This document shows, piece by piece, positions 3,259 to 20,799 of a stretch of DNA of 24,043 nucleotides. Below the pieces are notes generated by a model that saw nothing but the letters and a program-made list of their open reading frames with translations, ran no database searches and was not told the origin of the DNA. Source of the DNA: a virus; the IMG/VR virus record IMGVR_UViG_3300008120_000377, positions 1-24,043 of that record; one strand, written 5' to 3'. The position numbers were made by a program, and so were the translations under genes. How positions within the stretch are numbered: the stretch's first letter is position 1; every line of letters begins with the position of its first letter.

Positions 3259-3543
3259 ATGGAAATAGCACCAACAACTCTGGACCCGTATCTGCAGAGA
3301 CAGGTCGACCATGGTATCAGCGGTATTGATGTCATGCATGGCCACCTCAAAGTTTTAATGCTGGAGGCTGAACAAGAACTGACAGAGGCGCAGCGTATTG
3401 AAGAGGAGAACGACTTTAGTGACGCTATGGAATCTATGGAGCGTAAATATTGGGAGGGACAGGTAGACGCACTTGCTAATCTATATAGTTTAACATATGA
3501 CCTGTCATTTGCCATTGCAGCCAAGGAGGCGACCAATGAATGA
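3259..3543 (+). CDS. Hypothetical helical protein, 94 aa
   Basis: Preceded by GGAAGGA at good spacing and only two bases after the previous stop. It is rich in Glu and Ala and helical (LMLEAEQELTEAQRIEEEN), likely coiled coil. No family recognised; part of the same operon as its upstream neighbours. Confidence 0.7.
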   Translation: MEIAPTTLDPYLQRQVDHGISGIDVMHGHLKVLMLEAEQELTEAQRIEEENDFSDAMESMERKYWEGQVDALANLYSLTYDLSFAIAAKEATNE

Positions 3544-3553
3544 ATGGATCCAG

Positions 3554-3582
3554 TTGACAATCCCATTAGACTTTGATACTAT
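3554..3582 (+). promoter_or_regulatory. Promoter with extended -10
   Basis: TTGACA (3554-3559), 17-base spacer, TACTAT (3577-3582) preceded by TGA, giving an extended -10. It drives the gene at 3609 through a short leader carrying ACAGAAAGGA. Confidence 0.7.
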
Positions 3583-3608
3583 TAACACAAACCACAGAAA
3601 GGAAAATA

Positions 3609-3935
3609 ATGAATACTAAAAACCTAACACTAATAGGTCATTTCGGAGTAGACAGCGGGCAAGCCATGGTTGGAGACCCTTGCTATCTTGATGAATGGAA
3701 ACCATGGAATTCAGAGGAGGACAACTTTGAGGACCATGTAAATAAAGTTGGCGAGTATGGCTACCTTGGTGCCTGTAATGCTACCCTTGATAAAGGTTAC
3801 GGAGAATTAGGAAATGGTTCTGCCGTTGCTTTCTCTACAGGCTATGGCGATGGATACTATCCTGTCTATGCTGAAATCAATGAGGACGGACGAGTTGCTA
3901 AGATTGTTATTGATTTTGTAGGAGATGATGAATAG
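3609..3935 (+). CDS. DUF4241-like phage protein
   Basis: 108-residue protein starting at the ATG behind AGAAAGGA. It begins MNTKNLTLIGHFGVDSGQ and carries MVGDPCYLDEW, then STGYGDGYYPVYAEINEDGRV near the C-terminus, the pattern of small VGDPCY proteins related to DUF4241. The function of the family is unknown. The stop overlaps the next GTG start (TAGTG), so the two are co-translated. Confidence 0.75.
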   Translation: MNTKNLTLIGHFGVDSGQAMVGDPCYLDEWKPWNSEEDNFEDHVNKVGEYGYLGACNATLDKGYGELGNGSAVAFSTGYGDGYYPVYAEINEDGRVAKIVIDFVGDDE

Positions 3936-4294
3936 TGGGAGCACGTTGTAACTTTGTATTTAAACAATCAGAGGACCACGCTGTGGCCTTATACAGCCAC
4001 TGGGATGAGGACCATATGTATGAGTTGCTTGCAGCAGCCCTGCAGCATGCACGTCCACGTCTACAAATGGGGGACATTGCATATGCTACCCGTATGGCTA
4101 TTAGTTATATTATTAAAGATTCTATTCTGGATGAGACTGGCTATGGTATTACAGCCATGGACCCATCAGACCAAGGCTTCTTAGACCATCCAATCACAAT
4201 TGACCTCACTGACATGACCGTGGGCAGCGGTGAAGACTGGCACAATATTGAAGACTTTATTAATTATAATCTTGTGACGACGGTCACTAAATAA
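3935..4294 (+). CDS. Conserved phage protein of the GARCNFVF type
   Basis: 119 residues from a GTG start coupled to the previous stop. The N-terminal GARCNFVFKQSEDHAVALYS and following HWDEDH resemble conserved uncharacterised actinophage proteins that I recall starting with similar NFVF...YSHW motifs. The C-terminus contains HPITIDLTDMTVG. Function unknown. A strong terminator follows immediately. Confidence 0.75.
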   Translation: MGARCNFVFKQSEDHAVALYSHWDEDHMYELLAAALQHARPRLQMGDIAYATRMAISYIIKDSILDETGYGITAMDPSDQGFLDHPITIDLTDMTVGSGEDWHNIEDFINYNLVTTVTK

Positions 4295-4360
4295 AAGAGG
4301 GTTGGGTCCCCTCTTAATAGGAGGGCAGGTCCCCTTTCTGACTTGCCCTCCACATCTTTT
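4295..4360 (+). terminator. Double-hairpin terminator
   Basis: AAGAGGG (4295-4301) pairs with CCCTCTT (4309-4315). A second, stronger stem pairs GGAGGGCAGG (4320-4329) with CTTGCCCTCC (4342-4351), nine of ten pairs, followed by ACATCTTTTT. Ends the operon that begins at 3609. Confidence 0.8.
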
Positions 4361-4362
4361 TC

Positions 4363-4371
4363 TGATACACT
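4363..4371 (+). promoter_or_regulatory. Possible extended -10 promoter
   Basis: TGA followed by TACACT just upstream of the gene at 4383. No good -35 was seen, and the site overlaps the end of the terminator. Confidence 0.35.
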
Positions 4372-4382
4372 GAGGAGTGTTT

Positions 4383-4616
4383 ATGCGTATATCTAAAGCA
4401 ATGGTGCCCGAAGAACGGGTAGCCAAAAGAGTCAAGGCTATAGTTGAAGACCTAGACCTAGACCTAGAACAGGCTGGCATAATGATTGCTAGAACCCTTC
4501 CACACTTGACTTTCACAAGATTAAAGTATATAATGGAAGTTGCTAATGATGAAAAAGAAATGATATTAAATCCGCAAATTAGACAAGATAGGTGGCGACA
4601 AGGTGGACTATGGTAA
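4383..4616 (+). CDS. Hypothetical helical protein, 77 aa
   Basis: I start at the ATG at 4383 because GAGGA (4372-4376) is six bases upstream; the in-frame GTG at 4377 overlaps that site. The protein is basic and helical (MVPEERVAKRVKAIVEDL) with a repeated DLDLDL stretch. Family unknown. Its end overlaps the next gene by 14 bases. Confidence 0.65.
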   Translation: MRISKAMVPEERVAKRVKAIVEDLDLDLEQAGIMIARTLPHLTFTRLKYIMEVANDEKEMILNPQIRQDRWRQGGLW

Positions 4617-4926
4617 AGCAGTAGGTATCCTAAGATACTTAAAAGAAAATGAACTTGACATAGTAGACATAGAGTTTTTGCCATCAGAGTTTTTTATAGA
4701 GTTTGAGGAAGGACTACAACTTGCCGTATTTGTTGATGGTGGTTGGGCTAAACTAACTTCAGAAGGAAAAGTAGTTATTGACTCAATTTGGGGAATACTT
4801 TGTGCTCTTAGAGATATAAGCCCCAATGTTATGTATGATAACCTGCTTGACTTTTTTAAGGCTCAGGCAATAGATGCTGAAGTTGTCCCTATTGAACAGG
4901 GCAAGAAAAAGAAAAAATCTAAATAA
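4603..4926 (+). CDS. Hypothetical phage protein, Lys-rich tail
   Basis: 107 residues from a GTG start inside the preceding gene. It begins MDYGKAVGILRYLKENEL, has a hydrophobic mid-section (LQLAVFVDGGWAKL) and ends in KKKKKSK, a basic tail suited to nucleic acid binding. No family recognised. Confidence 0.7.
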   Translation: MDYGKAVGILRYLKENELDIVDIEFLPSEFFIEFEEGLQLAVFVDGGWAKLTSEGKVVIDSIWGILCALRDISPNVMYDNLLDFFKAQAIDAEVVPIEQGKKKKKSK

Positions 4927-4932
4927 TCTTTA

Positions 4933-4961
4933 GACCGCTGCTGCGGTTCGATCTTTCTTTG
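4933..4961 (+). terminator. Likely terminator
   Basis: ACCGC and GCGGT form a tight stem with loop TGCT right after the stop codon, followed by a T-rich stretch (ATCTTTCTTTG). Confidence 0.55.
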
Positions 4962-4971
4962 TGTATATTAG

Positions 4972-5048
4972 ATTACGAACCATTATATTTTTTCCCAGAT
5001 TTTTAGATTACGAAGCCCATTGTTTAAGCCCAGGGGATATGGTAAACT
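4972..5048 (+). promoter_or_regulatory. Regulated promoter with two ATTACGAA motifs
   Basis: TTGTTT (5020-5025), 17-base spacer and TAAACT (5043-5048), with the ATG six bases downstream. ATTACGAAC (4972-4980) and ATTACGAAG (5007-5015) lie 35 bp apart; the second ends four bases upstream of the -35. TTTTTTCCCAGATTTTT lies between the two copies. Confidence 0.6.
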
Positions 5049-5054
5049 AGATCT

Positions 5055-5327
5055 ATGACTTTTGAAACCAAGTGTGACATATTAGGGCAGTTCTGGTTTG
5101 AATTTAGAGATGATGAGAAACTAAAAGACTTTATCGAATACAACGATATTGGTTTGCCACTAGCATGGTTTATATCCACACATGTTGTTATGCCTACCTC
5201 GATGGCAGAAGAGTATGTCAACGAAACCTTTGATCTCTTTATATCTGCATTTGAGATTTCTCATGAAGAAGCAGATCTATTTACAAACCTTAATGATCTA
5301 TTAGCCTATGTTGAGGGTAGAGAATAA
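5055..5327 (+). CDS. Hypothetical acidic protein, 90 aa
   Basis: Starts six bases after a TAAACT -10, with no Shine-Dalgarno, so probably leaderless. It begins MTFETKCDILGQFWFEFRDD; acidic, aromatic-rich and mostly helical. No family recognised. It is the last clear gene before the non-coding control region. Confidence 0.7.
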   Translation: MTFETKCDILGQFWFEFRDDEKLKDFIEYNDIGLPLAWFISTHVVMPTSMAEEYVNETFDLFISAFEISHEEADLFTNLNDLLAYVEGRE

Positions 5328-5360
5328 CAAACCATAATATGGCCAAACCATAATAAATGA

Positions 5361-5369
5361 TGTTATTAT
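5361..5369 (+). promoter_or_regulatory. Extended -10 for leaderless start at 5376
   Basis: TGT followed by TATTAT, with the ATG exactly six bases after the -10. No convincing -35. Confidence 0.45.
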
Positions 5370-5375
5370 TGATAT

Positions 5376-5588
5376 ATGGCCAGACATTTCTATAGACTCA
5401 ATAATCCAAAAGCAGCCAAACAAGAAGACATTGGTTTGACTAATGCCTTTGTAGCCTTTACTCATACTATAGGTCTTAGTAGGTTCTTTTTCTTTATCCC
5501 GCCGCTTTTTGGCGGGCATCAAGAGCGGCCTATTACGAGCGGGGATCAAAAAGATTACAAACCCCATCACAAAAACCTCTATAAGTAA
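5376..5588 (+). CDS. Possible small protein, 70 aa
   Basis: The N-terminal half (MARHFYRLNNPKAAKQEDIG) looks protein-like, and the start fits the -10/six-base/ATG pattern seen elsewhere. The second half is basic and low in structure and encodes across a GC-rich palindrome (CCCGCC 5498-5503, GGCGGG 5511-5516), so the frame may be a truncated gene or partly fortuitous. No family recognised. Confidence 0.4.
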   Translation: MARHFYRLNNPKAAKQEDIGLTNAFVAFTHTIGLSRFFFFIPPLFGGHQERPITSGDQKDYKPHHKNLYK

Positions 5589-5708
5589 GTAACAAACCAT
5601 ATTTCCTGGTTTTCTGGTTTTTTAAAACATTTTAAAACATAATAAAAAGTATTACGAACTTATTGGATTTTTTCCAGAATTTTGGGCAAAAAAAGATTAC
5701 GAACGCTA

Positions 5709-5737
5709 TTGACAAACCCCCATATTTAGGCTATAAT
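5709..5737 (+). promoter_or_regulatory. Perfect consensus sigma70 promoter P1
   Basis: TTGACA (5709-5714), exactly 17 bases, TATAAT (5732-5737), with ATTACGAAC ending four bases upstream of the -35. No coding frame follows for more than 500 bases, so the transcript may be a non-coding or primer RNA or a long leader. A CAAACC/GGTTTG inverted repeat (5741-5761) sits at its start site. Confidence 0.85.
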
Positions 5738-5758
5738 GCCCAAACCTTATATGATGGT

Positions 5759-5787
5759 TTGACAATATCGGGCATATATGGTATGAG
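5759..5787 (+). promoter_or_regulatory. Second tandem promoter P2
   Basis: TTGACA (5759-5764), 17-base spacer and TATGAG (5782-5787), exactly 50 bases downstream of P1. The -10 is imperfect. Confidence 0.5.
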
Positions 5788-5863
5788 GGTTTGTGAGGTT
5801 TGAAGATATAGGGATGTAAGGTTTGGCAGCGACATTACGATCCCGCCTTATAAAAACGTTCCA

Positions 5864-5904
5864 TCCTCCACTATCCTCCACTTTACTCCACTTCTACTCC
5901 ATAT
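5864..5904 (+). repeat. Four tandem CTCCACT iteron-like repeats
   Basis: Four direct repeats of 10-11 bases: TCCTCCACTA, TCCTCCACTT, TACTCCACTTC and TACTCCATAT. The near-helical period and position just upstream of the DnaA boxes suggest binding sites for an initiator or regulator. Confidence 0.65.
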
Positions 5905-5929
5905 AGAAATAATATCAGTAAGATTTATC

Positions 5930-5993
5930 TGTGGATAACCTGTGGATAACTTCTATATTCAAACCAATATAGATGTGTCTAACCTGTGGATAA
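5930..5993 (+). promoter_or_regulatory. Cluster of three DnaA boxes
   Basis: TGTGGATAA, the reverse complement of the canonical DnaA box TTATCCACA, occurs at 5930-5938, 5941-5949 and 5985-5993, all in one orientation and each extended to CTGTGGATAAC. The spacings of 11 and 44 bases put all three on the same helical face. Confidence 0.8.
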
Positions 5994-6017
5994 CTCTGTC
6001 TTTTCCCATCCACACTG

Positions 6018-6046
6018 TTGACAATAATAAACTATCTTCGTATCAG
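6018..6046 (+). promoter_or_regulatory. Possible promoter downstream of DnaA boxes
   Basis: TTGACA (6018-6023) with TATCAG (6041-6046) at 17 bases. The -35 is perfect and the -10 poor. DnaA bound just upstream could regulate it. Confidence 0.35.
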
Positions 6047-6281
6047 ATATCCTAGTATAAACCTGATGTAAATGCATTGGGCTATTATAAAACCTTTTAA
6101 GCGACGGTACACATAAAACCACCTTTGGTCCCATATGGGATATATTCTACTATGGGGGATAATGGGGATACTTTACATCCCCTCCATTTTATCGGGGATA
6201 TAGATATATTAACCCATAGTGCTCGTTTAGAGCATAGGGGGGTTTGTATTTCTATTTTCCGCCGAACTTTAGCATAACTCA

Positions 6282-6290
6282 TGATACAAT
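6282..6290 (+). promoter_or_regulatory. Extended -10 upstream of sulfotransferase
   Basis: TGA followed by TACAAT, eight bases before the ATG at 6299. No Shine-Dalgarno is present, so the transcript would be leaderless or nearly so. Confidence 0.5.
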
Positions 6291-6298
6291 CATAAATA

Positions 6299-6826
6299 AT
6301 GAGCAATTTAAGAACTATAGAATCAGTTTCAATATGTACATATCCCAGATCTGGTAGCGTTTATCTGTCTAATTTGATAGTAGCCAAAACTGGATATCAA
6401 TTTCCTAAATATCATTATTTTGTAGAAGGTACCATTATAGTTGTAGTCAGAAATCCTTTAGACTCAATAACATCTGAAGCAACAAAACTTTCTCATTATG
6501 ATGAATTTTATAAGATTTCTGACTTAATCAAAAAATATTCTGGTTTTTATACAGAGTTGTTAAAAAGACCTGCAATAATATTTAAATATGAAGATTTGCT
6601 ACAGAATCCTGATGGCATTATCAAAACATTAATTAAAGAATTGAATATAACTGAAATAAATGAAACCCCATTTGAAGAAGTTCAAGATAATATTAGTGAA
6701 AAACATATAACAACCAGCACTAAGTCATCACACTATGATCTTGTTAAAGAAAAGGTCAAAGAATATGATTTAAAAGAATTAAATAAATTATATGAACAAG
6801 TAAAAAATAAAGCATTAAAACCTTAA
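6299..6826 (+). CDS. Sulfotransferase family protein
   Basis: 175 residues. The N-terminal TYPRSGSVYLSN (about 14-25) matches the 5'-phosphosulfate-binding motif YPRSGTTWL of PAPS-dependent sulfotransferases, and VVRNPLDSITSE (about 49-60) matches the 3'-phosphate-binding RNPxDxxxS element. KYEDLLQNPD is also typical. It is shorter than usual enzymes (about 250-300 residues), so it is compact or divergent. It is followed by a 2OG dioxygenase and a second sulfotransferase, suggesting joint modification of a glycan or protein. The acceptor is unknown. Confidence 0.8.
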   Translation: MSNLRTIESVSICTYPRSGSVYLSNLIVAKTGYQFPKYHYFVEGTIIVVVRNPLDSITSEATKLSHYDEFYKISDLIKKYSGFYTELLKRPAIIFKYEDLLQNPDGIIKTLIKELNITEINETPFEEVQDNISEKHITTSTKSSHYDLVKEKVKEYDLKELNKLYEQVKNKALKP

Positions 6827-6834
6827 ATGAAGTG

Positions 6835-6840
6835 TATAAT
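6835..6840 (+). promoter_or_regulatory. TATAAT -10 for leaderless dioxygenase start
   Basis: Perfect TATAAT with ATG six bases downstream, located in the eight-base gap after the sulfotransferase stop and overlapping the alternative GTG. No clear -35. Confidence 0.55.
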
Positions 6841-6846
6841 ATAAAA

Positions 6847-7461
6847 ATGGGTTATAAGATAAATGGAAAAGACATAGGACATGATCCAGACTCTTTTGAT
6901 AGGTCTGATGCTTATAAACAGTATTTTGAGAGGGTAAGCAATAATAAAGAAAATATCATAGTTATCAATAATTTTTTAGATTATCAAACTTGTGATGAAT
7001 TAATAAATTATACAAAAATGTTTAATGGACAGAAAATACCTTGTCAATGGGATGAAAATGGACAAGAGTGTAATTGGTTTCAAGTATTTAACAGCCCTCC
7101 AATGCAAAGTTTTGCATGGCTTTTTGACAAAGTTGGTGCGTTAATAGAAAATTCTTTTTCTGTAAAAATAATACCAAGACCAAATCAACCAATTTGTGTA
7201 GTGAAATGGGATGCAGGAACAAGTTTAGGAGTTCATGTAGATGACATCGGTAATCCAAATGCAAGTCCTTTAGCCAGCATTATATATTTAAATGATGACT
7301 ATGAGGGCGGAGAATTATATTTTCTAGATCATGACTTATTAATAAAACCTAAAAAAGGTGATTTGATTTATTTTCCAGGAACGTATAATTTTGCTCATGA
7401 AGTCAAAACCGTAATATCTGGAACAAGATATACAGTACCATTGTGGTACGATATAGTATAA
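6847..7461 (+). CDS. 2OG-Fe(II) dioxygenase, prolyl-4-hydroxylase-like
   Basis: 204 residues from the ATG at 6847, chosen because it lies six bases after TATAAT; a GTG at 6832 would add five residues. The jelly-roll motif is complete: iron ligands H130 and D132 (GVHVDD), distal H184 (FAHEV) and 2-oxoglutarate-binding R194 (GTRYTVPLW), plus LNDDYEGGELYF between them. Members hydroxylate prolyl, lysyl or other substrates using O2 and 2-oxoglutarate. The substrate is unknown. A second homologue lies at 16224-16970. Confidence 0.88.
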   Translation: MGYKINGKDIGHDPDSFDRSDAYKQYFERVSNNKENIIVINNFLDYQTCDELINYTKMFNGQKIPCQWDENGQECNWFQVFNSPPMQSFAWLFDKVGALIENSFSVKIIPRPNQPICVVKWDAGTSLGVHVDDIGNPNASPLASIIYLNDDYEGGELYFLDHDLLIKPKKGDLIYFPGTYNFAHEVKTVISGTRYTVPLWYDIV

Positions 7462-13299: not shown

Positions 13300-14274
13300 A
13301 TGAATAAAAATATGTTTGATATTTCAAATTTTTATACTTTTAATAAAAATAATGATGATTTTTTAATGAATTTTTCAAAAAATACAATTTTCGGACGGCA
13401 TAAGGATTTATATGTAGAAATGGTTCCTGGAGAACAAAGAGAAATTTATAGGTTTAATAAAAGATCAAATGGAACAATTGATGAAGAAAATATATATAAT
13501 ATTAATGAATTAGGGCTAAGAGGTTTGAATTATCAAAACCCTGAAATAGTTGCTGTTGGTTGCTCCATTACTTATGGAATGGGCATTCCAGAAGAATATA
13601 CCTGGCCTATGTTTTTATCTAAAAAAGTTAATACAGAAATTTTAAATTTTGGAATCAGTGGATATTCTATAAGTTTACTTTGTCAAAAAATAATAGAATA
13701 TTGTTATTTTAATAATCATTTTCCAAAAAATATTTTTTGTTTTTTCCCAAGTCTTTTTAGAACTTTTAATATTAACCCAATGCTAGGTAAAAAAATAACA
13801 AATAGTCTATTTATAAAAACTATAAATCCATTAGTTAGAGATGATAAAGAATTTATTTGGCATTTTGAGAATAATAATTTTGAATACGAAGAAAAAATAA
13901 ATCCATCAATACATAATACAATTTTTAATTCAATAAATAGTATTTTTATTTTAGAAAAATTTTGCATAGATCATAATATTAATTTACTTTGGACAACATG
14001 GAATCAACCTTCAAATACTTTATTAGAAAAATTAAACAGTATTCCTAATTTTAAATTAGAAAAATATAAAAAATTTGACAATATTTCAAATAATAATTTT
14101 GAAATAAAATGTAATTCAAATCATGACAATAATTTATTTAATCACAAATGCTGGAGCATTGGATCTGATTATTTTGTTGTAAATGGCAATAAACTTAAAG
14201 ACTATCAGTCTCATCCAGGAATTCACTATCATTATCATGTTGCAGATTTTTTTGCAAAGGTGTATAATAATTAA
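13300..14274 (+). CDS. SGNH/GDSL-like hydrolase
   Basis: 324 residues. Block I is VAVGCSITYGMGI with candidate nucleophile S89 replacing the GDS context; a Gly block follows (LNFGISGYSIS), and near the C-terminus DYQSHPGIHYH provides D301 and H305 for the triad. SGNH enzymes remove acyl or acetyl groups from glycans and lipids. The gene is very AT-rich. It is a distant relative of the two paralogues at 18839 and 19827. Confidence 0.75.
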   Translation: MNKNMFDISNFYTFNKNNDDFLMNFSKNTIFGRHKDLYVEMVPGEQREIYRFNKRSNGTIDEENIYNINELGLRGLNYQNPEIVAVGCSITYGMGIPEEYTWPMFLSKKVNTEILNFGISGYSISLLCQKIIEYCYFNNHFPKNIFCFFPSLFRTFNINPMLGKKITNSLFIKTINPLVRDDKEFIWHFENNNFEYEEKINPSIHNTIFNSINSIFILEKFCIDHNINLLWTTWNQPSNTLLEKLNSIPNFKLEKYKKFDNISNNNFEIKCNSNHDNNLFNHKCWSIGSDYFVVNGNKLKDYQSHPGIHYHYHVADFFAKVYNN

Positions 14275-14276
14275 AT

Positions 14277-14349
14277 TGGTCTGTAGTTCAGTTGGTAGAA
14301 CACTCGACTGTTAATCGAGATGTCGCAGGATCGAGACCTGCCAGACCAG
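14277..14349 (+). tRNA. tRNA-Asn (GTT)
   Basis: Acceptor TGGTCTG/CAGACCA, anticodon stem CTCGA/TCGAG with loop CTGTTAA (anticodon GTT), T arm with GCAGG/CCTGC. Discriminator G, followed by CA rather than an encoded CCA. It lies two bases after the SGNH gene and just before the halogenase promoter. Confidence 0.93.
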
Positions 14350-14355
14350 CAATGG

Positions 14356-14361
14356 TATAAT
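14356..14361 (+). promoter_or_regulatory. -10 box between tRNA-Asn and halogenase
   Basis: TATAAT seven bases after the tRNA 3' end. It overlaps the upstream in-frame ATG at 14360, supporting the downstream start at 14378. No clear -35. Confidence 0.45.
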
Positions 14362-14377
14362 GTTACATGAGGATAAT

Positions 14378-15982
14378 ATGTCAATAAATAAAATCGTAAT
14401 TGTTGGCGGGGGATCTGCTGGCTGGATGTCAGCAGCAACTTTAATAAAAGCATTTCCAAATAAAGAAATAATTGTAATAGAATCTAAAGATGTTCCAATC
14501 ATCGGTGTTGGAGAATCCACATTGGCTGGGATCAAAAGATGGACAAACTTTATAGGACTAAAAGATAAAGATTTTTTAAAGGCTACCGATGCTACTTATA
14601 AGTTAAGTATAAAATTTAATGATTTTTATAAAAAAGATTCTGGTGGTTTTCATTATCCTTTTGGCACTCCAATGATAGATAAAAATAGAAATCCATTTCA
14701 AGACTGGCATATTAAAAAATATATCTATCCAGATACACCAGTAACAGATTTTGTTGAATGTTTGTTTCCAGCATCTGCATTATTTAATCAAAATAAGTAT
14801 TGTCCAAATACTGATAATAAGTTTGATAATTTTGATCACAATAAAAATGTAGCATATCACTTTGATGCTGTTAAATTTGGAAGATGGCTTAAAGAATTTA
14901 TATGCTTGCCTAGTGGAGTAATTCATATTGAAGCAACTGTTACTAATATTGTTAAAGATGATAAAGTAGGAATTAAATATCTAGAATTAGATAATAAACA
15001 AATTGTTGATGCAGATTTATTTATAGATTGTACAGGATTTAAAAGTTTGTTATTAGGTCAATCTTTAAATGAGCCATATATATCTTTACAAAATTTAATT
15101 CCGAATAATGGTGCTTGGGCAGCCCAGGTTCCATATAAAGATAAAGAAAAAGAAATGGAGTCGTATACAAATTGTACGGCACTAGGAAATGGTTGGTGCT
15201 GGAATACACCATTATACTCTAGGCTGGGAACTGGATATGTTCATTCAACAAAATTTATTACAAAAGAACAAGCATTAGATGAGTTTAAGCAATACCTAAT
15301 GTCAGATAAAATGGTAATACCTCGTACAAAAGAAGAGGTAGAAAAATTACAGTTTAGATATATTGATATGAAAATTGGTATTCATGAAAGAACATTTGTA
15401 AAAAATGTAGTGGCAATAGGTATGGCTGCTGGCTTTATTGAACCTCTAGAATCTAATGGTTTGTATACAGTTCATGAATTTTTGTTTAAATTAGTAGATA
15501 TCTTACAAAGAAATGATATAAGTCAATTTGATCGTAACATGTATAACTCATCAACCAAAAATATATTTGATGGTTTTATTAGATTTGTATCTTTACATTA
15601 TTTACTTTCTCATAGGGATGATACTGAATATTGGAAAGGCATTAAAGATGGAATTATAATTGATGTTGAAAAAGAAATGATGGATCATTATTCTGATGAT
15701 CATAATGCATTTAATGATTTAGTACAAAGATATATGGTTAGTTTTCAACATCCTATGGGAATTGCTGGAATAACTTATATAGCAACTGGAATGAATTTGA
15801 ATATGATGAATGAGGCCAGGGCAAAAAATGAATACTTTTTATCAGGAATTCCTCTTGAACATACAGCCTATCAGGCTAATCTATTATGGGAATCAAGAAA
15901 AGAAAAATGGAAAAATAATGCAAATGATGCACCATCACTTTATCAATATTTAAAAGAAAACTTTTTTGACGGAAAAGAGTAG
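14378..15982 (+). CDS. FAD-dependent tryptophan halogenase
   Basis: 534 residues from ATG 14378, chosen for GAGGAT just upstream and the canonical N-terminus MSINKIVIVGGGSAGWMSAA. Signatures: FAD-binding GGGSAGW (10-16), VGESTLAGIKRW, catalytic lysine K75 in ATYKLSIKF (the PrnA Lys79 position), WCWNTP (273-278, the WxWxIP halogenase motif with Thr for Ile) and PLESNG with E358, matching PrnA Glu346. It should use reduced FAD, O2 and halide to halogenate Trp or an indole-like or peptide substrate. A flavin reductase partner is not visible and would come from elsewhere. Confidence 0.92.
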   Translation: MSINKIVIVGGGSAGWMSAATLIKAFPNKEIIVIESKDVPIIGVGESTLAGIKRWTNFIGLKDKDFLKATDATYKLSIKFNDFYKKDSGGFHYPFGTPMIDKNRNPFQDWHIKKYIYPDTPVTDFVECLFPASALFNQNKYCPNTDNKFDNFDHNKNVAYHFDAVKFGRWLKEFICLPSGVIHIEATVTNIVKDDKVGIKYLELDNKQIVDADLFIDCTGFKSLLLGQSLNEPYISLQNLIPNNGAWAAQVPYKDKEKEMESYTNCTALGNGWCWNTPLYSRLGTGYVHSTKFITKEQALDEFKQYLMSDKMVIPRTKEEVEKLQFRYIDMKIGIHERTFVKNVVAIGMAAGFIEPLESNGLYTVHEFLFKLVDILQRNDISQFDRNMYNSSTKNIFDGFIRFVSLHYLLSHRDDTEYWKGIKDGIIIDVEKEMMDHYSDDHNAFNDLVQRYMVSFQHPMGIAGITYIATGMNLNMMNEARAKNEYFLSGIPLEHTAYQANLLWESRKEKWKNNANDAPSLYQYLKENFFDGKE

Positions 15983-16223: not shown

Positions 16224-16970
16224 TTATTTTTCCTGACTTTCATATTTATTTTCACTTAAATATTTTTTATGTGTTTCAAGCCCGACTGGCTCAAGACCAT
16301 CTTCTTCAGGCCATAGTTGCATCGAATCTATATACGACCAATTTTTGTAATTTGGCTCAACATCTATATCATATGTATACCAACTTGGCATAGTGTATCT
16401 TATTCCTTTAGTAATTACTTCTACAGTGTGTAAATATTCCATATTACCTGGGAAAAGTATCATATCCCCAGCCCTTGGTTTAATTTTTAAATTATAGTTT
16501 GGGAAAGTAATCTCTCCACCTTCGTAATCATCATTTGGATACATTAAAACAGATACGTTATATTTAAAAAAATCAGCAGCAAGTGCGGGACTTCCGTCTG
16601 GTTTTTGACAATCACAATGTAGTTTAGAATTCATTCCTTCAACCCATTTAACAAAGTGAGTTGAGTTAACGGCATCACGTTTTACTGGAATATCGTATTT
16701 TTTTATAAAAAGTTTATCTATCTCTTCAAATATCTTTTCTTCATACTTTACTAATATTTCATAAATTTCTAAATTTTCTTTTTTTATTTGTTCTTGTCTT
16801 ATGTCTTTTCCACCCATAAATTCATTATCATTTTCATATTTTTTTAAATAATTTTGTATTTTAACTAAATCATCATTTTCTATAAAGTTATTAATTAAAA
16901 CTATATTTTCTTTTTTTGATCCTAATCTATCAAAATAATATGTATATTTTTCCCAATCTAATTGACTCAT
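16224..16970 (-). CDS. 2OG-Fe(II) dioxygenase, prolyl-4-hydroxylase-like
   Basis: 248 residues with AAAGGA upstream of the ATG. The N-terminal ENIVLINNFIENDDL resembles ENIIVINNFLDYQTC in the homologue at 6847. The catalytic set is H118 and D120 (LHCDCQ), H181 (YLHTVEV) and R191 (GIRYTMPSWY), with PNDDYEGGEITF between. A C-terminal tail of about 50 residues (PNYKNWSYIDSMQLWPEEDG) is absent from the other. Substrate unknown. Confidence 0.87.
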   Translation of the reverse strand: MSQLDWEKYTYYFDRLGSKKENIVLINNFIENDDLVKIQNYLKKYENDNEFMGGKDIRQEQIKKENLEIYEILVKYEEKIFEEIDKLFIKKYDIPVKRDAVNSTHFVKWVEGMNSKLHCDCQKPDGSPALAADFFKYNVSVLMYPNDDYEGGEITFPNYNLKIKPRAGDMILFPGNMEYLHTVEVITKGIRYTMPSWYTYDIDVEPNYKNWSYIDSMQLWPEEDGLEPVGLETHKKYLSENKYESQEK

Positions 16971-18140: not shown

Positions 18141-18839
18141 ATGCCCAAAAAACCAGCAAAGCATATGAATTATAACGAAGAAATAACTTATAATGACGAC
18201 GAAATTGAAGATAGTTTTATAATATCTCAGAATCAATTAACAAATGCTAAATTATTTAGTTCAAGGGAAGAGTATGCAAAAAACTTTAAGAAAAAAATAT
18301 CTTATTTAGAAGTTGGAGTGGCTTGGGGATATTCTGCACAAATGTTTATTGATTATGCGGAAGCGGATAGTGCAGACTTATTAGATTGGTATAATCAAGA
18401 TCTTAAGTGTTGGTCATGGAGAAAATTTGGTTCTTGCCAATGTACAGGATTTAAGCATGAAATATTATATACGCCAGAAACACACGAACAATACATTAAA
18501 GATAAATTCTCTTATCACAAAAATATAAAAACTATAAAAGGAGATGCATTAGATTTATTGCCAACTTTAAATAAAAAATATGATCTTATATATATAGACA
18601 TAACAAATGAACGAATAACCACAAGAAAGGTATTATCATATTGCTCAAACTTAGTTGATATAGGTGGAATCATTGGTCTTAATGATTACTTGATTTATGA
18701 TGGTATAATTGAAGATGCCCCATATGGAACATTTCAAACTGTAAATGAGTTTTTAGAATTAAATAAAAATTGGGTAGTTGATGCAATAGCATTACATAAC
18801 CTCGGATTTTATGATATATATATTAGGAGAGAATCTTAG
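18141..18839 (+). CDS. Class I SAM-dependent methyltransferase-like
   Basis: 232 residues with AGGAG five bases upstream. Rossmann motif I is YLEVGVAWGYSAQMF (about 55-69); KTIKGDALDLLPTL and KYDLIYIDI follow as the acidic/post motifs, then LVDIGGIIGLNDY. This is the Methyltransf_24-like layout often seen near glycan and peptide modification genes. An insert with CWSWRKFGSCQC is unusual. Its stop overlaps the next GTG (TAGTG), so it is coupled to the SGNH cassette. Confidence 0.75.
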   Translation: MPKKPAKHMNYNEEITYNDDEIEDSFIISQNQLTNAKLFSSREEYAKNFKKKISYLEVGVAWGYSAQMFIDYAEADSADLLDWYNQDLKCWSWRKFGSCQCTGFKHEILYTPETHEQYIKDKFSYHKNIKTIKGDALDLLPTLNKKYDLIYIDITNERITTRKVLSYCSNLVDIGGIIGLNDYLIYDGIIEDAPYGTFQTVNEFLELNKNWVVDAIALHNLGFYDIYIRRES

Positions 18840-19747
18840 TGAAATGGGAAATTGAAAAAAAAGAAAACTTTGATAGTTTAAGAATAAAAGAATTTGATCA
18901 AACATGGGGTCCATTTGTTATTGATTGTCAACAGTATAATAACAATAATAATAAAAGTTCAGAATACGGCTACAGTACTGATGGAAATTTTCATTATTTA
19001 AGCAATCTTCCAGTAGAAGAAATAATTGATAAAACTGTAGAAGTAGTATATAAATATAATAAAAATTGGTTTAGATGTGATAATTTTATTAAAAATCATA
19101 AAGGACTTCATATTTTATATGCTGGATGTTCTAATACCGAGGGAGTTGGATCTAATATAGAAGACACTTGGTCTCATATGTTACACCTAAAACTTTCTGA
19201 GTATAATGATATAAGCGGATATTTTAATTTAGGGAAAGGTGGTTATGGATTACATAAAATTTTAAATAATTTTATTGTTTACATAAAAGAATATGGTAAG
19301 CCAGATTATTTTTTTGTTTTAGCGCCAAACGTATTGAGGGGTTGGAAATGGGAAAATAATGCATGGATGTACGCTCAAAAAATTCCCTATGATACAAAAC
19401 AAGATAACCTACAAGAACAAATATTAGATCATAGAAAAGAACTTCCTAATTGGCTTACCCTTATGAATGCACTAGAATCAATATGCCACACTAACAATAT
19501 AAAGTTTTTATGGAGCACTTGGGACCTTAATGAAATACCAAATATATTAAAGTCAGGACTATTTAATGATTCATTTTTTCCATTACCCGAAAGAACTGAA
19601 TCAGTTATTGAAGGATACAGGCCAGGATTAAAAATGAATAAAGGAGATCTTATAGCAAGAGATGGACATCCTGGAAAGGTTGTTCACGAAATTTGGAGCG
19701 ATTATTTTATTAGAGCAATAAAAGGACGAGGCTGGCTAAATGTTTAA
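18839..19747 (+). CDS. SGNH/GDSL-like hydrolase, paralogue A
   Basis: 302 residues from GTG, eight bases after AGGAGA. Block I ILYAGCSNTEGVG (candidate nucleophile S98), Gly block FNLGKGGYGLHK (about 130-140), N164 in APNVLR and the C-terminal ARDGHPGKVVHEIW with D275 and H277 complete an SGNH layout. Shares clear similarity along its length with the next paralogue. Likely an esterase or acetyl transfer enzyme acting on a glycan; not secreted by any visible signal. Confidence 0.75.
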   Translation: MKWEIEKKENFDSLRIKEFDQTWGPFVIDCQQYNNNNNKSSEYGYSTDGNFHYLSNLPVEEIIDKTVEVVYKYNKNWFRCDNFIKNHKGLHILYAGCSNTEGVGSNIEDTWSHMLHLKLSEYNDISGYFNLGKGGYGLHKILNNFIVYIKEYGKPDYFFVLAPNVLRGWKWENNAWMYAQKIPYDTKQDNLQEQILDHRKELPNWLTLMNALESICHTNNIKFLWSTWDLNEIPNILKSGLFNDSFFPLPERTESVIEGYRPGLKMNKGDLIARDGHPGKVVHEIWSDYFIRAIKGRGWLNV

Positions 19748-19820
19748 AAAAATTGTTAGATGGTATAGAATAAAAAAAATAAAAAAAGAGTTAAATAAAC
19801 CTAAACCTTATATATATTAG
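19740..19820 (+). CDS. Cationic micropeptide A, 26 aa
   Basis: Begins inside the stop of the SGNH gene (ATGTTTAA overlap). Starts MFKKIVRWYRIKKIKKELNK and ends PKPYIY. It forms a cationic amphipathic helix with Trp8/Tyr9 and a Tyr-rich end. An ORF of identical length and similar sequence occupies the same place after paralogue B, which supports it as a real gene. Function unknown. Confidence 0.6.
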   Translation: MFKKIVRWYRIKKIKKELNKPKPYIY

Positions 19821-19826
19821 GATAGA

Positions 19827-20726
19827 ATGATGACAAGTTGGGAAATTGAAACAAAAGAGCCTTTGGATTATTTAAAAATAAAAGAATTTGATGTAACATG
19901 GGCGATGACCCCAGAAGAGGCATTATCAAAATATAATATAAAATTCGGTTACAGAACCGATGGGAATTTTCATTATTTAGATAAACTTCCAGCAGAAAAT
20001 ATCATTGATAAGAGTGTACAGGTTTTATATAAATATAATCAAAACTGGTTTAGATGTGATAATTTTACTAAAAATCATAATGGATTACATATTTTATATA
20101 GTGGATGCTCAAATACAGAAGGTTATGGGGCTAATATAGAAAACACTTGGCCTCATATGCTACATTCACATTTGTCTAATTTTAATACTATTAGTGGATA
20201 TTTTAATTTAGGAAAGGGTGGAAATGGATTACATAAAATTTTAAATAGTTTTATTGCTTATATAAAAGAATATGGCAAACCAGATTATTTTTTTGTTTTG
20301 GCTCCTAGCGTATTAAGAGTATGGGAATGGGAAGATGGCTTTTGGAAATATAAAACAAAGCCTTTATATGCTACATACGAAGATAAAATAAAAGAATTAA
20401 TTCTAGATCATAGAAAAGAATTTCCCAATTGGCTAACACTAATGAACGCATTAGAAGCAATATGCAATACCAATGATATTAAATTTTTATGGACCACTTG
20501 GGATAACAATGAAACCATTAATATAATTCAAACAGAACTTTTTAATAATTCATTTTTTCCATTGCCACCTAGATATGATTTCATTGTTGAGAAATACAGA
20601 CCAGGATTAAAAATGAATAAAGGAGATCTTAGAGCAAGAGATGGACATCCTGGAAAGGTTGTTCACGAAATTTGGAGCGATTATTTTATCAAAGAAATAA
20701 AAAAACGTGGTTGGTTAAATGTTTAA
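19827..20726 (+). CDS. SGNH/GDSL-like hydrolase, paralogue B
   Basis: 299 residues with AGGATAG upstream; the second ATG (19830) is an equally possible start. Same motifs as paralogue A: SGCSNTEGYG (S95), FNLGKGGNGLHK and ARDGHPGKVVHEIW (D272, H274). Bases 20601-20689 are identical to 19622-19710 except one, while the rest has diverged, suggesting recent gene conversion at the catalytic C-terminus. Confidence 0.75.
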   Translation: MMTSWEIETKEPLDYLKIKEFDVTWAMTPEEALSKYNIKFGYRTDGNFHYLDKLPAENIIDKSVQVLYKYNQNWFRCDNFTKNHNGLHILYSGCSNTEGYGANIENTWPHMLHSHLSNFNTISGYFNLGKGGNGLHKILNSFIAYIKEYGKPDYFFVLAPSVLRVWEWEDGFWKYKTKPLYATYEDKIKELILDHRKEFPNWLTLMNALEAICNTNDIKFLWTTWDNNETINIIQTELFNNSFFPLPPRYDFIVEKYRPGLKMNKGDLRARDGHPGKVVHEIWSDYFIKEIKKRGWLNV

Positions 20727-20799
20727 AAAAATTGTTAAATGGTATAGAATGAAAAAAATAAAAAAACAATTAAAGGCAACAAAATATTTTATTTATTAA
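20719..20799 (+). CDS. Cationic micropeptide B, 26 aa
   Basis: Same overlap and length as micropeptide A: begins MFKKIVKWYRMKKIKKQLKA and ends TKYFIY. Substitutions are mostly conservative (R/K, I/M, E/Q), and start, stop and length are kept, as expected under selection for protein. Confidence 0.6.
   Translation: MFKKIVKWYRMKKIKKQLKATKYFIY

Follow-up and report, generated by a model that had tools for sequence, protein, structure and literature searches.

The window analysed here is a stretch of 24,043 nucleotides (about 24 kb) from the IMG/VR virus record IMGVR_UViG_3300008120_000377, and its subject is an operon at 18141-20799 in which two SGNH hydrolase genes are each followed by a micropeptide gene. 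The genes are tightly packed on the + strand in the order methyltransferase, SGNH copy 1, 26-codon open reading frame (ORF), SGNH copy 2, 26-codon ORF. The first gene encodes a class I S-adenosylmethionine methyltransferase of the Methyltransf_24 type (18141-18839), and its stop overlaps the start of SGNH copy 1 (18839-19747). The latter begins with GTG, is assigned by family profile and fold, and contains the nucleophile block GCSNTEG, the block DGHPG and the block-III Asn. Micropeptide 1 (19740-19820; MFKKIVRWYRIKKIKKELNKPKPYIY) is a cationic peptide of 26 residues, made up of a proposed basic leader and the C-terminal tripeptide YIY. SGNH copy 2 (19827-20726) has the same blocks, except that Ser replaces the near-invariant block-III Asn (residue 161), and shows a weak match to Lipase_GDSL. 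Micropeptide 2 (20719-20799; MFKKIVKWYRMKKIKKQLKATKYFIY), also cationic and of 26 residues, has a proposed leader followed by the tripeptide Phe-Ile-Tyr (FIY). Both micropeptides are assigned by the conservation of their family.

Each micropeptide ORF overlaps the stop of the preceding SGNH gene by an identical 8 bases, ATGTTTAA, and both encode exactly 26 residues, as the initial annotation of this DNA had stated. The two SGNH proteins are 71% identical. Compared in 45-base blocks, the two cassettes are most alike in nucleotide sequence at the SGNH 3' end and where the peptide begins (identity 0.98 to 0.89). The window contains a methyltransferase-SGNH-micropeptide operon whose SGNH-peptide step is duplicated. 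The two peptide genes alone differ by 3 synonymous and 10 non-synonymous changes. Because of these numbers the window pair is insufficient as proof of coding, which is supplied by the relatives.

The family was opened by a search of viral contigs with a DNA pattern for the SGNH-peptide junction; earlier searches of viral sequences with one SGNH protein, or with a two-row alignment, had given no match. The junction pattern led to one contig (L003) with the same gene order, an SGNH protein 36-37% identical, and a third peptide of 26 residues, MFKKIIRWYRFRKIKKQLKKPKRFIY. A four-sequence SGNH profile gave 80 loci, and every ORF of 15-45 residues around each SGNH stop was listed with no motif required. 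In this unbiased listing a short basic peptide ending in [FYW][ITL]Y comes after most terminal SGNH genes (about 36 peptides), and its last residue is Tyr in 36 of 36. An independent scan anchored on the methyltransferase gave 19 further peptides; it fixed the last three residues, and the terminal-residue statistics come from the motif-free listing. The fuller IMG/VR collection comprises 50 different peptides, encoded by 53 different nucleotide sequences.

When the peptides are right-justified at the C-terminus, the last 15 or so residues align free of gaps as [RK]KIKK[QE][LI]xKP[RK]x[FY]IY-stop. Across the family the core is [FYW][ITLV]Y, with Tyr as the terminal residue. This tripeptide is the most conserved part, and KIKK within the proposed leader is conserved too. 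The commonest length is 26 residues. Many longer peptides (e.g. L065, L076 and L043) have four extra residues in the middle, from 26 to 30, and keep the C-terminal register; four residues correspond to approximately one helical turn. Length and overlap had been described as conserved. This holds for the window pair, and the peptide of L003 has the same length, but elsewhere in the family the length varies between about 25 and 34 residues or more, and the start lies between -34 and +10 relative to the stop of the SGNH gene. The cationic character noted at the outset is general: the net charge is +7 to +14, with a mean of +10.5. A tblastn search of phages with one peptide at an E value of 10 gave no match, six peptides gave only insignificant matches against PHROG and Pfam, and the window peptides were likewise without a significant match there. 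No description of the peptide was found in the open-licence literature.

Substitutions among the relatives follow the reading frame. For 22 disjoint pairs, the pooled ratio of non-synonymous to synonymous change (pN/pS) is 0.32 in frame, versus 1.49 and 1.13 in the other two frames. In the last three codons, third positions hold 18 of the 22 changes. Synonymous variation is seen throughout FIY-stop: Ile is ATT, ATA or ATC, Tyr is TAT or TAC, the stop is TAA, TAG or TGA, and the Phe codon varies too. All three frames relative to the SGNH gene occur, and no FIY tail fused to SGNH was found in the loci examined. Broken frames, or changes free of codon bias, had been named as the outcome that would speak against a gene; neither was seen, and the frames of the other copies are kept. 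Because of the codon-like pN/pS, the third-position changes and the variation of frame, the data strongly support purifying selection on the peptide itself, rather than on a frameshifted tail or a promoter motif, and thus a real, unannotated gene. Judged by these patterns, the short conserved ORF appears to be genetically encoded and to evolve by codons, as a precursor of a ribosomally synthesized and post-translationally modified peptide (RiPP) does.

The peptide is coupled to one group of SGNH genes. A degenerate DNA pattern for its C-terminus was run on viral stretches and on 257 Gb of cellular genomes. It matched 33 viral stretches, and those with a usable open frame adjoin an SGNH gene; the only viral matches without one are a chance match and a match cut by the end of its stretch. 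The cellular genomes gave five chance matches, none with a convincing peptide ORF. When 19 records of 10-123 kb were searched whole, exactly one peptide was found in 18, always beside the best-scoring SGNH gene, and most of the 19 hold further, more distant SGNH genes without a peptide. The window, with its two copies, is an exception to this single copy. In one locus (L113:2240-2332) a peptide copy ending in FIY stands directly before the SGNH gene, and the stop of the former touches the start of the latter.

The SGNH tree shows the same relation. A group of 46 rows (support 87, which is not high) contains 40 members with the peptide, two cut by contig ends and four without; these four are upstream, non-terminal members of tandem SGNH arrays. 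A separate clade of six rows has no peptides. In the methyltransferase-anchored scan, the peptide was present in all 68 loci that were long enough and in which the methyltransferase is followed directly by SGNH; these loci are partly redundant, and the counts are therefore not independent trials. Nine methyltransferase loci had no downstream SGNH gene; they include L142 and L156, whose operons are described below, and L158, where an SGNH-peptide pair lies elsewhere in the genome. The peptide gene is conserved at the protein level, single-copy in the 18 contigs searched whole, and specific to one SGNH group. It defines a new family of small genes, strictly partnered with one enzyme; PHROGs and Pfam miss this conserved family of about 26 codons, and it was the partnership that led to it. 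The initial proposal of real small genes, overlooked by annotation and paired with SGNH, is strongly supported by the relatives, the pN/pS values and this coupling.

In the SGNH alignment (54 rows), Ser is invariant in a GCSxTEG-type block, and Asp and His are invariant in D-x-H (S95, D272 and H274). The block-III Asn is present in at least 90% of the alignment and in copy 1 of the window. Given its Ser at residue 161, the duplicated copy 2 may have an altered activity. The SGNH proteins tested matched no PHROG, Pfam or NCBIfam family above the cut-off. Cellular homologues were seen neither in 291 genomes from the phylum of Cylindrospermum nor in 299 from that of Pelagibacteraceae, in searches that had no positive control. 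The peptide-bearing SGNH proteins are acidic, with a mean net charge of -8.3 versus -1.0 in a small peptide-less set, values uncorrected for relatedness.

The AlphaFold2 model of SGNH copy 2 has a predicted local distance difference test score (pLDDT) of 91.7 and a predicted template modelling score (pTM) of 0.91. Foldseek matched it to SGNH enzymes of the TesA type and to CgnD (E value 1.3e-4). Upon structural re-alignment against the PDB, CgnD (8a2n) came first, with a Z score of 15.5 and a root-mean-square deviation of 3.9 over 215 residues; the next entry had 13.4 over 165 residues. The likeness to CgnD was not presupposed and emerged from the fold search. The model agrees with TesA and other SGNH structures in fold, with Ser in block I and Asp and His towards the C-terminus, as an SGNH enzyme should. 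The fold also matches carbohydrate esterases, and the nearest viral models include several proteins of uncultured Caudovirales named 'SGNH_hydrolase'.

CgnD is the SGNH hydrolase that frees the crocagin core from its leader in Chondromyces crocatus (PMC10070186, PMC10885120). Its substrate, CgnA, has 21 residues, of which 18 form a leader enriched in positive charge and three form the C-terminal core, and candidate crocagin precursors were recognised by C-terminal alignment (PMC10070186). The phage system resembles this one in its very short precursor-like peptide, its basic leader, its C-terminal aromatic tripeptide and its alignment from the C-terminus, and also in the adjoining SGNH hydrolase, whose best full-length fold match is CgnD. 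Enzymes of the 2-oxoglutarate (2OG) dioxygenase, methyltransferase and carbamoyltransferase types are encoded by the phages too; this is weak evidence, because such enzymes are common in these phages.

We therefore regard 'works like CgnA-CgnD' as the best available analogy, and give a probability of about one half to the reading in which the SGNH partner trims the peptide as a RiPP-like precursor. Recognition and cleavage of the leader are favoured because of the constraint on the C-terminal tripeptide, the charge complementarity and the CgnD-like fold. The micropeptide would be a short ribosomal precursor, consisting of a strongly basic leader of approximately 23 residues and a conserved C-terminal [FY]-I-Y. 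The acidic SGNH enzyme would bind the basic leader and remove it, in the role that CgnD plays for crocagin. Modification of the tripeptide or the precursor might come from the methyltransferase and from a 2OG-Fe(II) oxygenase, the latter encoded directly alongside in some lineages, and the product would be a small modified peptide made during infection. Translation, cleavage, modification (methylation or hydroxylation) and any effect on the host are inferred. More tentatively, large actinobacterial phages may encode a minimal RiPP system, in which a precursor of about 26 residues is served by one SGNH protease, one methyltransferase and at least one 2OG oxygenase; it would make a modified aromatic-Ile-Tyr tripeptide, perhaps acting on a host regulator as crocagin acts on CsrA. 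Should the peptide prove to be a substrate, a ribosomal-peptide pathway with a tripeptide product would be encoded in viral genomes. Phage infection would then be connected with small-molecule chemistry, and leader recognition by an SGNH protease could be studied in a very small system.

Several observations weigh against cleavage of the CgnD kind. No sequence-level link was found from the phage SGNH proteins to CgnD or to any PDB chain, and the match is by fold only; the fold has many members, and the first rank of CgnD comes from one model, that of copy 2, which itself lacks the block-III Asn. The phage core is [FYW][ITLV]Y, whereas that of crocagin is x-Tyr-Trp, and the phage enzymes have Asp-x-His where CgnD has Asp-x-x-His. 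The 13 contigs searched contain no match to Peptidase_M29, a distant relative of CgnB and CgnE; such relatives could be missed, because no Pfam family matches CgnB or CgnE themselves. The fold of the methyltransferase is a generic one, with MeT1 as the top match, and CgnL is absent among the matches listed. The 2OG enzymes and the carbamoyltransferase are general features of these phages. In addition, the phage enzymes are partly scattered over the genome, whereas those of crocagin are in one cluster. Since the Tyr-Trp core is absent, no relative of CgnB or CgnE was seen and the Asp/His spacing differs, the phage system should not be filed as crocagin.

The main alternative, which seems possible but rather doubtful, is that the peptide is a partner of the acidic SGNH enzyme without being its substrate: a subunit, activator, inhibitor or localisation factor, with the enzyme acting on a glycan or lipid. 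The proposed arrangement is that the C-terminus of the peptide docks in the active-site channel of SGNH. The strict one-to-one coupling, the overlapping genes and the opposite charges of the two proteins would all be accounted for in this way. Furthermore, the methyltransferase fold is near those of sugar and catechol O-methyltransferases, which is consistent with a glycan-decoration operon, and the carbohydrate esterases among the SGNH fold matches point in the same direction. However, a peptide that only binds has no need of a nearly invariant [FY]IY ending exactly in Tyr, and in most tandem SGNH arrays the peptide stands only at the last copy. Among the three roles guessed at in the initial annotation (membrane-active peptide, SGNH partner, modification substrate), the latter two fit best, and the C-terminal conservation together with the CgnD-like fold favours the substrate. 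Should the peptide be no more than a partner subunit, it and SGNH still form a defined enzyme-micropeptide pair that is directly testable.

It is unlikely that the peptide is an independent small protein, for example one binding RNA, DNA or a host protein, that uses the SGNH gene merely for translational coupling. Many phage small proteins bind host targets, the composition is rich in Arg and Lys, and the copy in L113 precedes rather than follows its SGNH gene. Against this, the peptide is never found away from SGNH in the contigs searched whole and is absent from the peptide-less SGNH clade.

A membrane-active or lysis peptide, that is, a cationic helix permeabilising the envelope and made beside lysis genes, is improbable. 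The peptides are very cationic and contain hydrophobic residues, a holin-like gene (cluster 2, recognised by eye) often lies within a few genes downstream, and an endolysin-like gene follows related SGNH genes in other loci. The amphipathic helix originally proposed was not borne out: against composition-matched shuffles, the helical hydrophobic moment has a mean z of -0.37 in 18-residue windows, -0.58 over the whole proposed helical part and 0.92 in 11-residue windows. Because the moment does not exceed that of shuffles, the membrane-active role is disfavoured, and it found no specific support elsewhere. A membrane disruptor would not be expected to have so exact a C-terminus or to depend on one SGNH group, and WhiB regulators, described below, point to actinobacterial hosts, which have no typical outer membrane. 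Finally, the notion that there is no separate gene, and that the conserved stretch is either part of SGNH, extended by frameshift or readthrough, or a DNA or RNA element such as a promoter spelled TTTATATAT, draws on the ATGTTTAA overlap and the A-rich run of the window, and is contradicted by the three relative frames and variable starts, the third-codon variation at FIY and the absence of a fused tail.

Other peptide systems are less similar than crocagin. In mycofactocin biosynthesis, MftA is a short precursor with a C-terminal Val-Tyr core, and the radical-SAM enzyme MftC and a creatininase-type peptidase are required. The phage peptides share the short length and a C-terminal Tyr after an aliphatic residue, which is the site of the chemistry in MftA; enzymes of the radical-SAM and creatininase types are not among the annotated neighbours, for which no systematic search was made. 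The MftE hydrolase of mycofactocin is noted in the literature (PMC10885120). A likeness to borosins was suggested by a TP_methylase gene directly after the peptide in L007, L008, L004 and L109. This gene, whose start coincides with the stop of the peptide gene or adjoins it, is RsmI-like, of the 16S rRNA methyltransferase family (RsmI in a profile search of the PDB, E value 1.6e-35); it occurs only in some lineages, no borosin enzyme is among the matches listed, and the borosin assignment was rejected. Phage SGNH/GDSL acylhydrolases in BFVD and UniProt share the fold and the nucleophile block, but the literature searched gave no partner peptide for them.

The methyltransferase of the window matches Pfam Methyltransf_24 (E value 7.6e-9), and its AlphaFold2 model (pLDDT 92) has an O-methyltransferase-like fold. 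Among the 50 distinct peptide loci it lies directly upstream of SGNH in 38, and in one more the two are fused. The fusion (L083:3185-4819) is an ORF of 544 residues, followed by the usual peptide. The methyltransferase family (window 18141-18839) has a segment common to these phages, CWSWRK.G.C.C....KHE.LYTPETH, whose spaced Cys residues may form a metal or substrate site.

A 2OG-Fe(II) oxygenase gene lies upstream on the - strand of the window (16224-16970; Pfam 2OG-FeII_Oxy_3, E value 1.1e-8; PHROG 61), and is a candidate tailoring enzyme by association only. In 39 of 50 loci a member of its cluster lies no more than 4 kb from the peptide. A second 2OG family, with HxD...HxR residues, abuts SGNH in L034 and L021 and abuts the peptide in L088, L103 and L104. 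A carbamoyltransferase is present in 13 of 13 large contigs tested; one of them is peptide-less, and the enzyme is therefore not specific to the peptide. In L142 and L156 (around 3500-6900) the methyltransferase occurs with two 2OG-like oxygenases and a NodU-type carbamoyltransferase, and neither SGNH nor the peptide is present. The genes downstream of the peptide vary: a sulfotransferase (L009), the RsmI-like methylase, a trypsin-like protease and others.

Every one of the 13 large contigs tested encodes WhiB regulators; of 14 control genomes, Corynebacterium alone has them. Because WhiB is present in every contig tested, the hosts are probably actinobacteria. From the kind of genes and records, our guess is that the phages are aquatic. 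An assignment to the T4 type was dropped, as a search for Gp23, made without a positive control, gave no match.

A third, distant SGNH gene is present in the window (region 13300-15982); it is 26% identical over part of its length and has no peptide. It is followed in the same region by a tryptophan halogenase gene (Pfam E value 9e-99), so that a viral halogenase adjoins an SGNH gene.

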